From Candidatus Poribacteria bacterium (lineage in GTDB: Bacteria; Poribacteria; WGA-4E; WGA-3G), in the NCBI GenBank assembly GCA_009839745.1, contig VXPE01000079.1, positions 1 through 44,761 of the forward strand: a stretch of 44,761 nucleotides of DNA, in the 5' to 3' direction. Below are positions 24,963 through 44,761 of this stretch, piece after piece; within the stretch, counting starts at the first letter, position 1; each line of letters starts with the position of its first letter. The translations under genes and the position numbers were made by a program. The notes under the pieces were generated by a model. That model worked only from the letters and a program-made list of their open reading frames with translations, had not been told where the DNA came from and ran no database searches.

Positions 24963-24987
24963 ACCAGCACGGACATCGTCTGTGCTG
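24963..24987 (+). promoter_or_regulatory. gcvT-gcvH intercistronic hairpin
   Basis: CAGCACGGA / TCTGTGCTG pair (one G:U) around a CATCG loop. There is no T tract, so it is more likely an mRNA-stability or processing hairpin than a terminator. Confidence 0.45.
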
Positions 24988-25009
24988 ACCAGATTAAATA
25001 ATTAAAAAG

Positions 25010-28274: not shown

Positions 28275-28331
28275 AAGCATGAAAAAATTCAATAATCTGG
28301 TCTCCAAACAATGGACTTTCAGAAATGGTGT

Positions 28332-28357
28332 AACTGACAACTGATAACTGACAACTT
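28332..28357 (+). repeat. Heptamer repeat run upstream of trkA
   Basis: Three AACTGAY units (28332, 28339, 28346) and a partial fourth, ending 8 nt before trkA. It matches the right end of the elements at 29771-29909 and 39930-40122, but no left half is present. Confidence 0.7.
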
Positions 28358-28364
28358 TAAAAAT

Positions 28365-29771: not shown

Positions 29772-29909
29772 ATGGTTGTCAATTCTCAGGTATCGGTTAT
29801 CGGTAAAGAGACACTTCTGTAACAATCTACCCGAGTTTGGATTATTCCCAGAGGTCACGGATTGATATATCAAGCTCTCTTAACTGACAACCGATAACCG
29901 ATAACTATT
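29771..29909 (+). repeat. Foldback intergenic element with heptamer ends, copy 1 (trkA-trkH)
   Basis: Begins at the trkA stop with GGTTGTCA and carries two left heptamers, ATCGGTT (29792) and ATCGGTA (29799). The body has TAACAAT, ACCC and TTGGATTATTCC. The right end is CTCTTAACTGAC followed by AACCGAT twice (29889, 29896) and AACTATT. The left and right heptamer arms are inverted repeats. Copy 2 lies at 39930-40122. Confidence 0.7.
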
Positions 29910-29913
29910 AAAT

Positions 29914-31419: not shown

Positions 31420-31475
31420 ACATTCTCTGAAACGCACTACTCAGTGACCGCTGGTGAATTTTGGAACCTTGTCCT

Positions 31476-31498
31476 CTGCCCTTTTTAAAAATGGGCAG
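31476..31498 (+). terminator. Possible trkH terminator hairpin
   Basis: CTGCCC (31476-31481) / GGGCAG (31493-31498) with an internal TTTTT/AAAAA extension. The following T run is only TTT, so termination is uncertain. Confidence 0.4.
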
Positions 31499-31518
31499 AT
31501 TTCCAGACGGATCGTGAC

Positions 31519-31563
31519 GTGACTGAAAACCTGCGCGTAATATAATGGAGCGCAGCCCAGGAG
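31519..31563 (+). promoter_or_regulatory. Covarying hairpin/promoter-like element upstream of pdxH
   Basis: Stem CTGCGC (31531-31536) / GCGCAG (31550-31555) encloses the 13-nt loop GTAATATAATGGA, followed by CCCAGGAG and an A-rich run before ATG 31579. The loop and the CCCAGGAG are identical to the element at 43229-43273, while the stem differs with paired changes. The loop contains TATAAT (31541-31546), and GTGACT (31519-31524) sits 16 nt upstream, so it could also be a promoter. Confidence 0.65.
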
Positions 31564-31578
31564 ACCATAGTTTAAAAA

Positions 31579-32223
31579 ATGAATACCGATAAACTACGCA
31601 GAGAATATAGAGTCCATGATGGACACCTACTTGAAGAGAATGTTTCGTCCGATCCGTTTGAACAATTTGAAAGATGGTTCTCGGACGCGATTGCCGCCAA
31701 ACTCGACCTACCGGATGCGATGACGTTAGCGACAGCAACACCCCAAGGTATTCCTTCCGCTCGAATGGTGGTCCTCAGAGGTTTCGATGCGAGAGGTTTC
31801 TGTTTCTACACGGATTATGGGAGCCAAAAGGGAAAGGAACTGGCTGAAAACCCGAACGCCGCGTTGGTATTCTATTGGCGTGAACTCGATCGGCAGGTCC
31901 GCAGTACCGGCACTGTCGAAAAAATGACAGCGGAGGAATCAGATGCTTACTTCGCCAGTCGTCCTGTAAGCAGTCAACTCGCCGTGTGGACAGAGCGTCA
32001 GAGCCTTGTGATTACGGGAAGAGAACATCTCACAGAAGGGTTCCAACAAGTAGAAAAGACCTATGCCCAAGATACCATTCCACGTCCACCACAGTGGGGT
32101 GGATACCGACTCGTGCCGAATCTATTTGAATTTTGGCAAGGGTGTCCGAACCGTCTCCATGATCGACTCTGTTATACGCTCCAGCCCGATGGAACATGGG
32201 AGATGAAACGCTTGTCGCCCTAA
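31579..32223 (+). CDS. pdxH: Pyridoxamine 5'-phosphate oxidase
   Basis: FMN-dependent oxidase making pyridoxal 5'-phosphate, the cofactor that GcvP in this window needs. 214 residues. Marks: MTLATATPQGIPSARMVVLRGFDARGFCFYTDY, SQKGKEL, NAALVFYWRELDRQVRSTG, SRPVSSQLAVW, then RPPQWGGYRLVPNLFEFWQGCPNRLHDR near the C-terminus. Start ATG 31579 lies 15 nt after the AGGAG of the conserved upstream element. A monocistronic unit is likely: the next gene is over 300 nt away. Confidence 0.96.
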   Translation: MNTDKLRREYRVHDGHLLEENVSSDPFEQFERWFSDAIAAKLDLPDAMTLATATPQGIPSARMVVLRGFDARGFCFYTDYGSQKGKELAENPNAALVFYWRELDRQVRSTGTVEKMTAEESDAYFASRPVSSQLAVWTERQSLVITGREHLTEGFQQVEKTYAQDTIPRPPQWGGYRLVPNLFEFWQGCPNRLHDRLCYTLQPDGTWEMKRLSP

Positions 32224-39930: not shown

Positions 39931-40122
39931 ACGGTTGTCAGAGGAGTAGTTTTCGGTTCAGATTTTTTCAAAAATTCTTTCAGTTTTCGGTGTTCAGTTA
40001 CAAGAGGCGTTGGCTAACAATTCACCCAAAACTTGGAATATTCCAACACTTGGGAAGATTGTTACAAGAAACCCTCTTAACCGACAATCGACAACCGACA
40101 ACCGATAACTATTGTAACCGAT
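39930..40122 (+). repeat. Foldback intergenic element with heptamer ends, copy 2 (nuoC-nuoD)
   Basis: Begins at the nuoC stop with ACGGTTGTCA. It carries TTTTCGGT-type left arms, then TAACAAT, CACCC, CTTGGAATATTCC, GATTGTTACAAGA, CCTCTTAACCGAC. The right run is AACCGAC, AATCGAC, AACCGAC, AACCGAT, AACTATT (40079-40113) plus a further AACCGAT at 40116. Same order of blocks as copy 1 at 29771-29909. ATG 40145 follows with its own AAAAGGAG. Confidence 0.7.
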
Positions 40123-40144
40123 AACTACAAAAAAGGAGTATCTT

Positions 40145-42483: not shown

Positions 42484-42620
42484 TGGATGGGTTTTTGATA
42501 CCCCTAACATCTCTCTTCTGAGCCTAAGATCGCAAGCCCGAAACGCAGTGGAGGGCGGCTCTGGAGCGAAAAGCGTCAAAGCACAAACCACATCCTTTAA
42601 CCGCAAGGAAAATTAAAAAT

Positions 42621-43148: not shown

Positions 43149-43228
43149 TTATAAAAAGGGGAATTAAAAACGTTTAGACCCCCAGGGGCTGTTGGAGAGC
43201 CTACTTTAGGTTTGGAAAGGTTCCTAAC

Positions 43229-43273
43229 TTTACTGGAAACCGTTGCGTAATATAATGGAGCAACGCCCAGGAG
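43229..43273 (+). promoter_or_regulatory. Covarying hairpin/promoter-like element upstream of nuoF
   Basis: Stem CGTTGC (43241-43246) / GCAACG (43260-43265) with loop GTAATATAATGGA (43247-43259), then CCCAGGAG (43266-43273) and an A-rich run before ATG 43288. TTTACT (43229-43234) stands 16 nt before the TATAAT in the loop. Loop and trailing sequence are identical to 31537-31563. Confidence 0.65.
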
Positions 43274-43287
43274 TAATAAATTAAAAA

Positions 43288-44761
43288 ATGGTTGAAGAAA
43301 GACGAATTCTCTACGAGCATCTGGATGTGCCTGATATTAACACGTTCGATGTGTTTCGGCAATACGACGGCTACACCCGTTTTGAAAAGGCAATCGCGGA
43401 ATATCAACCAGACGATATTGCGAAAATGGTGATGGATTCCGGGTTGAAGGGTAGAGGCGGTGCCGGATTTTCGACAGGCTTGAAATGGAGTTTCGTTCCG
43501 AGAGACATAAAACCGTGTTATCTCTGTTGCAATGCCGACGAAAGTGAACCAGGGACGTTTAGCAATCGCTACGTTTTGGAAAAGAATCCACACCTATTGA
43601 TTGAGGGGATCCTGATTTGCTGCTATGCAATGGGCATCGAGACGACTTATGTCTACATTCGCGGTGAATTCACACTCGGGAAAAAGATGTTAGATGCCGC
43701 CATCAAGGAAGCTTACGAGAAGGGATACCTCGGCAAAGACATCCGCGGCACGGGTCTCAACATCGACATTTATACACACCCAGGTGCCGGTGCTTATATC
43801 TGTGGCGAGGAGACGGGACTCATTGAATCGCTTGAGGGCAAACGTGGGCAACCTCGGAACAAACCCCCGTTCCCTGCTGTTGAAGGCGTATTTGGAAAAC
43901 CAACCGTCGTCCAGAATGTTGAGACATTGTGTAATCTGCCCTTCATCATTGGCAACGGCGTTGAATGGTACACCCAGATGGGACCGACGTATGCCGATAC
44001 GCGCGCGAATCCGCCGACACCCGACCCCAACACAGGCACGAAACTTTATTGCATCAGTGGTGATGTTAACGAACCCGGTGTTTATGAACTCGATCTCGGT
44101 TTGACCTGTTCAGAACTTATTGAGGTCGCAGGGGGGCTACGCGGCAAAGAGGTGAAAGCAGTTATCCCTGGTGGGAGTTCCGCCCCGATTTTAACACACT
44201 ACGAGTTGGACACGCGACTGGATTTTACTTCGCTCACACTTGCCAAGTCAATGCTCGGTTCCGGGGGCATCATTGTCATGAACGAGACACGGAACATCGT
44301 CGATTGCCTGCTCAATATCATGAAGTTCTATGCACATGAATCTTGTGGGCAGTGCACGCCGTGCCGCTGGGGAACCCCGTGGGTGCGAGATATTGTGCAA
44401 CGTATCGCCGATGGAAATGGGCGAAAAAGCACGATGACACGTCCTAAATTCGGTGTTGCTGAAAATGGTAGATGGGGGGATACCGGTGAGACAGAAGAGA
44501 TCTACGAAGACTTAGAGTTGCTGGAAAGTGTCGCCAATAACATTGCGAATGTGGATACAATGACGTGGAATACGATTTGTGTCTTTGGCATCGCAGTTTC
44601 CTGGCCCGCCGTGAGTTATCTGCGCAAGTTCCGACCCGAATTTGAAGCCGCTATCCGAGAAGGGAAACTTGTCACTCTACCTGTTGCTGAAGCGACTGTC
44701 CCACCGGAGGAAAATTACGCGTATCAACAGCGGTTTATTCCGAAGGAGTTCGCTGACCTAT
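43288..44761 (+). CDS. nuoF: NADH-quinone oxidoreductase subunit F (51 kDa), runs off the right edge
   Basis: Binds FMN and NADH and the N3 cluster. Open from ATG 43288 to the window end (491 codons visible, no stop). Marks: GLKGRGGAGFSTGLKW (NADH/FMN site), CCNADESEPGTFSNR, GAYICGEETGLIESLEG, then GSGGIIVMNE. The cluster ligands are SCGQCTPC (C353, C356, C359) and a fourth Cys, C431, in WNTICVFG. The third and fourth ligands are 72 residues apart against about 41 in E. coli and Thermus, because about 30 residues (RKSTMTRPKFGVAENGRWGD and neighbours) are inserted between the usual helices. Whether a stop follows soon is unknown. Confidence 0.95.
   Translation, partial: MVEERRILYEHLDVPDINTFDVFRQYDGYTRFEKAIAEYQPDDIAKMVMDSGLKGRGGAGFSTGLKWSFVPRDIKPCYLCCNADESEPGTFSNRYVLEKNPHLLIEGILICCYAMGIETTYVYIRGEFTLGKKMLDAAIKEAYEKGYLGKDIRGTGLNIDIYTHPGAGAYICGEETGLIESLEGKRGQPRNKPPFPAVEGVFGKPTVVQNVETLCNLPFIIGNGVEWYTQMGPTYADTRANPPTPDPNTGTKLYCISGDVNEPGVYELDLGLTCSELIEVAGGLRGKEVKAVIPGGSSAPILTHYELDTRLDFTSLTLAKSMLGSGGIIVMNETRNIVDCLLNIMKFYAHESCGQCTPCRWGTPWVRDIVQRIADGNGRKSTMTRPKFGVAENGRWGDTGETEEIYEDLELLESVANNIANVDTMTWNTICVFGIAVSWPAVSYLRKFRPEFEAAIREGKLVTLPVAEATVPPEENYAYQQRFIPKEFADL

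Follow-up and report, generated by a model that had tools for sequence, protein, structure and literature searches.

The systems closest to the repeat described here combine some of its traits. The BOX, RUP and SPRITE elements of Streptococcus pneumoniae are described as genus-limited, high-copy, structured intergenic repeats that are co-transcribed and regarded as parasitic (PMC3049150). In most families of GTAG-tagged REPs, more than 90% of the members have a GTAG, left unpaired, at one of the two feet of the palindrome (PMC3733652). The TAACTGA direct repeats of marine Beggiatoaceae are placed at start codons, in an account that makes no mention of Poribacteria (PMC4679880).

Here we describe hairpins found in the window, by which we mean the whole 44,761-nt stretch of Candidatus Poribacteria DNA that was analysed, and their relatives in other genomes. 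The hairpins belong to hundreds of copies of a small, genus-limited and apparently mobile repeat in sponge-symbiont Poribacteria. The initial annotation had described a two-copy hairpin upstream of pdxH and nuoF; we find a high-copy inserted element whose unit is well over 45 nt. No description of this repeat in Poribacteria was found in the open-licence literature, which is weak evidence of novelty.

Hairpins of the window and the genes that follow them

The features of the window to which we refer throughout are these.

24966-25009, + strand: A-like relative before gcvH, hairpin AGCACGGAC-ATC-GTCTGTGCT and tail GACCAGATTAAATAATTAAAAAG running up to the ATG (seen in the sequence)
31420-31578, + strand: inserted stretch from the trkH stop to the pdxH start, holding an A-type element (orthologue comparison in 30 genomes; filled/empty pairing)
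31475-31499, + strand: 5' inverted repeat TCTGCCC...GGGCAGA in the pdxH inserted stretch, a possible 5' hairpin of the element (seen in the sequence)
31531-31555, + strand: pdxH hairpin with stem CTGCGC/GCGCAG; the loop GTAATATAATGGA contains a triloop and the inner pairs A-T and T-A
31556-31578, + strand: A-type 3' tail CCCAGGAGACCATAGTTTAAAAA, running up to the pdxH ATG (tail common to other A copies)
42484-42620, + strand: B-type element before nuoE, stem GCCC/GGGC (42536-42539, 42553-42556), tail CCGCAAGGAAAATTAAAAAT up to the ATG
43150-43287, + strand: A-type element of 138 nt between nuoE and nuoF, exactly 5' of the nuoF ATG (empty versus filled relatives)
43241-43265, + strand: nuoF hairpin, stem CGTTGC/GCAACG, loop GTAATATAATGGA
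43266-43287, + strand: A-type 3' tail CCCAGGAGTAATAAATTAAAAA, running up to the nuoF ATG

The two hairpins that were first noticed, said to share a 13-nt loop, a compensated stem and a common CCCAGGAG 14-15 nt from the ATG, are borne out in all of these respects. Read from the sequence, the pdxH hairpin has arms CTGCGC (31531-31536) and GCGCAG (31550-31555) around the loop GTAATATAATGGA (31537-31549); CCCAGGAG follows at 31556-31563, and the ATG at 31579 lies 15 nt past it. The arms of the nuoF hairpin, CGTTGC (43241-43246) and GCAACG (43260-43265), enclose the identical loop (43247-43259), with CCCAGGAG at 43266-43273 and the ATG, 14 nt past it, at 43288. Three of the six stem pairs differ between the two hairpins, and all three differences are compensated. 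The covariance model matches the pdxH copy at 31523-31563 with 47.4 bits and the nuoF copy at 43233-43273 with 39.5 bits. Both gene names are backed by NCBIfam, pdxH by the equivalog TIGR00558 (255.6 bits, cut-off 180) and NuoF by PRK13596 (427 bits, cut-off 389). Two exact copies of a 13-mer inside the window alone would carry little weight; the genome-wide counts are far beyond chance.

At least two further relatives, before gcvH and nuoE, lie in the window and were absent from the initial annotation. The gcvH relative, whose tip is different from that of the A type and fully paired, has a predicted RNA fold of -12.7 kcal/mol (z -3.65), and its tail matches the A copies L023 and L271. The B-type loop before nuoE, GAAACGCAGTGGA at 42540-42552, contains a GCA triloop. 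Inverted repeats resembling TCTGCCC...GGGCAGA, less conserved, also lie 5' of other A copies.

Copy number, subfamilies and taxonomic range

The ATA form of the loop, GTAATATAATGGA, occurs in five exact copies in the genome, and a one-mismatch search revealed GTAATGTAATGGA as the main form, with 26 exact copies; the reversed-pattern control gave 0 for each. GTAATGTAATGGA was detected in 34 of the 35 genomes examined within the genus and is almost entirely missing from 24 others that share only its order or class, and in a scan of named genomes all 80 loci listed were Candidatus Poribacteria records. A covariance model, the kind of check that the initial annotation had suggested, returned at least 134 hairpins in the genome itself at E <= 0.01, a lower bound as 150 of 1350 candidates were scored. 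The family is confined to the genus.

The copies fall into two types. The type A consensus reads ..TTAACCRAAAACC, a 6-bp stem and tip, then CCCAGRRG..ATAATTAAAAA, and both GTAATATAATGGA hairpins, before pdxH and nuoF, belong here. The type B consensus reads AAAACCGTAG-CCC-(tip)-GGG-CGGATATACGG...CACCTGACCGAACCGCAAGGAAAATTAAAAA and includes the nuoE leader. The type B tail (CCGCAAGG..TTAAAA; CCGCAAGGWA..TWARA) was counted on the forward strand of the genome, where it appears 238 times or more against a control of 1; reverse-strand figures are inflated by double counting. Across the genus this tail ranges from 1 copy (G021) or 1 forward and 5 reverse (G028) to 293 forward (G026), and outside the genus it is near zero.

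Some further variation was observed within the family. In many B elements (L035, L036, L159, L220, L225 and others) the place of the GNA tip is taken by GCCTGCAACAACGGCGCAGGC, which forms a third, common class of tip, and tip classes at one and the same start codon differ among species, for example at nuoG (L292, L293, L306, L314). An extra stretch such as GGGGTTTTTGCTTGGGTGTTTCTTCAG splits the 3' arm of many B hairpins at one point (L022, L045, L055, L311, L312 and others), as if a second small repeat were nested in the B hairpin. At L052/L053 (G000:C54, ~51.96-52.19 kb) a 209-bp tandem duplication with two identical A hairpins has a run of N near its junction and may be an assembly artefact.

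Hairpin structure and covariation

The stem proposed in the initial annotation is maintained across the family. Among 31 distinct type A copies 98.8% of the pair cells are standard, with a covariation of 0.590 as against 0.202 for shuffled alignments and at most 0.161 for slid partners, and the 4-bp stem of type B is 99.5% paired in 48 copies, with a covariation of 0.365 versus 0.190. Pairing continues into the loop, where positions 5 and 9 are T-A in 175 cases, C-G in 25, a mismatch in one and a wobble in one. In 78 additional copies from the genome, chosen by the covariance model and not by the exact loop, a GNA triloop is found in 74 (GAA 49, GTA 19, GGA 5, GCA 1) and a perfect 4-bp inner stem in 71; four of the remaining seven are 14-nt loops of the type GTAAGCGTAGCGGA, which the gapless register misreads and in which a GC/GC inner stem is kept. 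The initial annotation had named stem mismatches in further copies, or copies scattered at random inside genes, as what would count against a selected stem; what we find are these inner stems and copies that are mostly intergenic. The tip thus runs from the stem through an internal loop, which is symmetric (G../GGA), to two inner pairs with a GNA triloop at their end; the 13-nt loop first reported, identical in the two copies, is itself structured. The stem sequence varies freely and stays paired, the tip is fixed and the 3' tail is A-rich. A second helix in type B, P1 (CCGTA/TACGG), shows 65% pairing, and was dropped as a structural claim.

Selection on the fold is well supported by these data. 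GNA triloops are stable in DNA and occur in RNA too. G-T/G-U pairs make up about 12 of about 890 stem cells, whereas exchanges of C-G for T-A are common; because such intermediates are nearly absent from the stems, DNA, single-stranded or extruded, is more likely than RNA to be the molecule that folds, and the scarcity leans towards Watson-Crick DNA folding or template switching over RNA. Template switching at quasi-palindromes, in which one arm is copied from the other so that paired changes arise unselected, could produce perfect stems in place of selection, and both the near absence of half-changed (G-T) pairs and the block rewriting suggested by several pairs swapped at once at the nuoF site fit such a process. 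It leaves unexplained the conserved tip, the covariation of the inner pairs around a fixed GNA triloop, and the dispersal of the copies, and we consider it unlikely; it may act alongside a mobile repeat.

The loop also bears on a second reading of the initial annotation, a sigma-70 promoter with TATAAT inside the palindrome, or an operator. A TATAAT does occur in the window copies, and 16 nt ahead of it stand TTTACT or GTGACT-like hexamers. TATAAT is, however, confined to the ATA loop, a minority form (25 of 271 collected copies with a loop); in the common loops TGTAAT or TGAAAT stands in its place, the GAAACGAAGTGGA class lacks a -10-like hexamer, type B lacks a conserved -35, and a site read by a protein would not allow the arms to change freely in pairs. 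With no -10/-35 conserved across copies we reject this reading at the level of the family, where it is very improbable, and the TATAAT is incidental.

Placement at start codons

The tail adjoins coding sequence, chiefly the start codon at a near-fixed distance. A same-strand gene lies downstream of 161 of 199 copies, and in 115 of these 161 its start codon falls 0-9 nt past the tail; among 217 cases in which the distance from CCGCAAGG to the ATG was measured, it came to exactly 12 nt in 163. Where a copy is antisense, its tail adjoins the stop codon of the facing gene. Tails are tandemly repeated in 22 of 365 cases. We infer that copies survive mainly where genes stay intact and where the tail can serve as a ribosome-binding stretch.

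Filled and empty sites

Between nuoE and nuoF most relatives have an empty site, ...GAGGAGATAGT directly followed by ATG, while in G000, G033, G002 and G019 the site is filled by an element of ~130 nt lying exactly between TAGT and ATG. The nuoE site has a B element in several of the orthologues compared and lacks it in others. At pdxH, where the window carries an element of type A, its nearest relative, G008, shares the stem and differs in the tip (GTAAGCGAAGCGAA), other relatives have nothing or TAACTGA-like repeats, and the interval from trkH to pdxH (31420-31578) is short or of different sequence in many of the 30 genomes compared. Comparison of flanks over all fetched loci gave filled/empty pairings for 113 copies, some of which are tandem copies. 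Each site examined is occupied in certain species, whereas in others it is empty or holds different sequence, and we conclude from these alignments that the elements are inserted units of ~100-160 nt. Inspection by eye of the nuoF, nuoE and pdxH boundaries revealed neither a target-site duplication nor terminal inverted repeats, the marks of a classical MITE of a DDE transposase, and the 5' end is variable and ill-defined.

Orthologous copies differ by compensated changes as well. The stems at the nuoF site read CGTTGC/GCAACG or CACCGT/ACGGTG, those at a trkA-like site CCC/GGG or CTC/GAG between species, and those at a hisA-like site GCTC/GAGC or GCGC/GCGC between species, with compensated stem differences among species also at nuoG and other shared sites; a site at which several pairs have changed together may owe this to gene conversion or to a new insertion. 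Mean identity among orthologous copies is 94% in the hairpin, 94% in the tail, 88% at the coding start and 81% upstream, a contrast that is inflated, the sample having been picked by loop and tail. That hairpin and tail are the better conserved parts suggests that an element, once in place, has a role beyond mobility, to a degree that the choice of sample overstates.

These observations invite the view that the family is a cis-acting RNA leader, in which binding by a protein, the ribosome or a small RNA preserves the GNA hairpin and tail in the 5' UTR, and copies have been duplicated and then selected as a translation regulon. The 161 of 199 copies with a same-strand downstream gene, the near-fixed spacing to the ATG, the compensated differences at orthologous sites and the better conservation of hairpin and tail than of the flanks all speak for it. 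Neighbouring species nevertheless lack the element at the same genes, the downstream genes are functionally mixed (pdxH, nuoE, nuoF, nuoG, gcvH, trkA and others), some copies are antisense, face stop codons or stand in tandem, the stems are nearly without G-U pairs, and no Rfam family matches. We regard an RNA leader as rather unlikely, though slightly less so than template switching. In line with the initial annotation, which did not recognise a known riboswitch here, the hairpin is none: the window has no Rfam match at the gathering score, ten loci searched at E <= 0.5 gave one weak unrelated match, and a known riboswitch or Rfam RNA was rejected on this lack of a curated covariance-model match.

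Search for a mobilising partner or carrier

A RAYT and a reverse transcriptase were considered as mobilising partners, and neither was upheld. The family might be a GTAG-tagged REP family moved by a RAYT, a Y1 tyrosine transposase. In support, the 5' foot of the hairpin is immediately preceded by TAG in 125 of 160 type B copies (TAGC 95, TAGT 30), in general within (C)GTAG, and REPs have been reported to form stem families that differ by alternative residues which remain complementary (PMC3733652). In B1 copies, however, the TAG foot bases can pair with TACGG, in the helix that is 65% paired, and GTAG is absent from type A in all alignments; furthermore, REPs measure 20-40 bp, which the present unit exceeds several times over, and they lie mainly near 3' ends (PMC3733652), whereas it is placed before starts. 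The Y1 genes (PF01797) neither track copy number across genomes nor are flanked by hairpins, 50 loci around Y1_Tnp genes hold three hairpin/tail motifs, all far from the gene, and the copy-rich G013 has no Y1 match in an assembly that is 89% complete. The family departs from GTAG-REPs in all three of their marks that were compared, an unpaired GTAG foot, a RAYT flanked by repeats and a 20-40 bp unit near gene 3' ends. With neither proximity nor copy-number correlation a RAYT/Y1 partner was rejected, and a REP origin is very improbable, if slightly less so than a promoter. A reverse transcriptase was considered because of the A-rich tail, the repeated tail units and the 5'-shortened copies, and was rejected, RVT_1 being missing from the copy-rich genomes G010, G013, G023 and G030.

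Phage and plasmid records gave no match. Viral contigs gave five matches, two of them (L396, L399) on IMGVR_UViG_2740892559 (78675 bp); this contig and the poribacterial PYJC01000177.1 are equally long (78675 bp), and the former is probably the bacterial contig filed as viral. At the pdxH start of G010 (L093, ~position 1500) we observed an IS200/605-type element with a TnpB-like C-terminus and a typical right-end hairpin, which seems to have replaced the pdxH ATG. It was read as unrelated to the hairpins, its right end probably running into coding sequence.

A model for the origin and role of the repeat

We propose that the hairpins are members of a new genus-specific, high-copy family of mobile repeats, which are non-autonomous and serve at the same time as portable ribosome-binding leaders; this is in our judgement the probable explanation. 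The family has the traits of small interspersed repeats, namely many dispersed copies, unrelated flanks, a narrow taxonomic range and filled and empty sites with defined boundaries. Starting from the insertion and the structure seen in the alignments, we infer mobilisation at the level of DNA and a role in translation. The element would move as a unit in trans through a putative enzyme that recognises the folded tip, and recognition would more likely take place on single-stranded or extruded DNA than on RNA. Copies landing just 5' of an ATG would survive by bringing their own ribosome-binding stretch, predicted to be the AAGG ~12 nt before the ATG in type B and an A/T-rich stretch in type A. 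Translation of the downstream genes, essential metabolic ones included, would now begin from the element, and the hairpin would then join the mRNA leader, where it may modulate translation as a side effect. A bolder form of this model holds that the element is targeted to starts, or filtered to within 1-2 nt of them, that in one genus hundreds of genes have come to use it as their standard ribosome-binding leader, and that a putative enzyme moves it by reading a GNA-triloop DNA hairpin with a variable stem; this we hold as tentative, possible and yet clearly less likely than the model in its general form.

If the model holds, a substantial set of genes, among them those for nuo subunits, pdxH and gcvH, owes its present translation-initiation regions to a selfish repeat, in a host that is an ecologically important sponge symbiont. 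The passage from mobile DNA to a part of gene expression could then be traced over ~35 related genomes with filled and empty sites. Such a family would also offer a clean case in which selection on a DNA fold, selection on an RNA fold and template switching can be set against each other as the source of compensated changes. Finally, it would point to a mobilising system for the repeat.

Comparison with known systems

The early promoters of phage N4 are DNA hairpins with 3-nt loops that are extruded from supercoiled DNA. They serve as an analogy for hairpin recognition alone, by which a short GNA-type triloop would be plausible as a recognition structure at the level of DNA.

Placement at start codons is what the Poribacteria hairpins share with the Beggiatoaceae TAACTGA repeats, which are, however, simple heptamer arrays without a hairpin (PMC4679880). 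In the A and B alignments no TAACTGA heptamer arrays lie within the hairpin elements, and a TTAACC.AAAACC stretch lies just 5' of 5 of 38 TAACTGA arrays, as in type A copies. In the window itself TAACTGA/TAACCGATAA-like repeats stand directly before the starts of trkA (~28320-28364), trkH (~29875-29913) and nuoD (~40095-40144). Arrays of this kind also precede pdxH in many relatives, including species that lack the hairpin, and some of the arrays come after TTTAACCAAAAACC as in type A.

Like the GTAG REPs, the Poribacteria repeats are dispersed palindromes with complementary stem variants, and type B is often GTAG-footed; they are set apart by placement, length, the untagged type A and the lack of association with a RAYT (PMC3733652). 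The likeness to BOX, RUP and SPRITE lies in genus limitation, high copy number and strong secondary structure (PMC3049150). The Poribacteria elements differ in that they run right up to the start codon, keep a fixed distance to it and bring a predicted ribosome-binding stretch with them.
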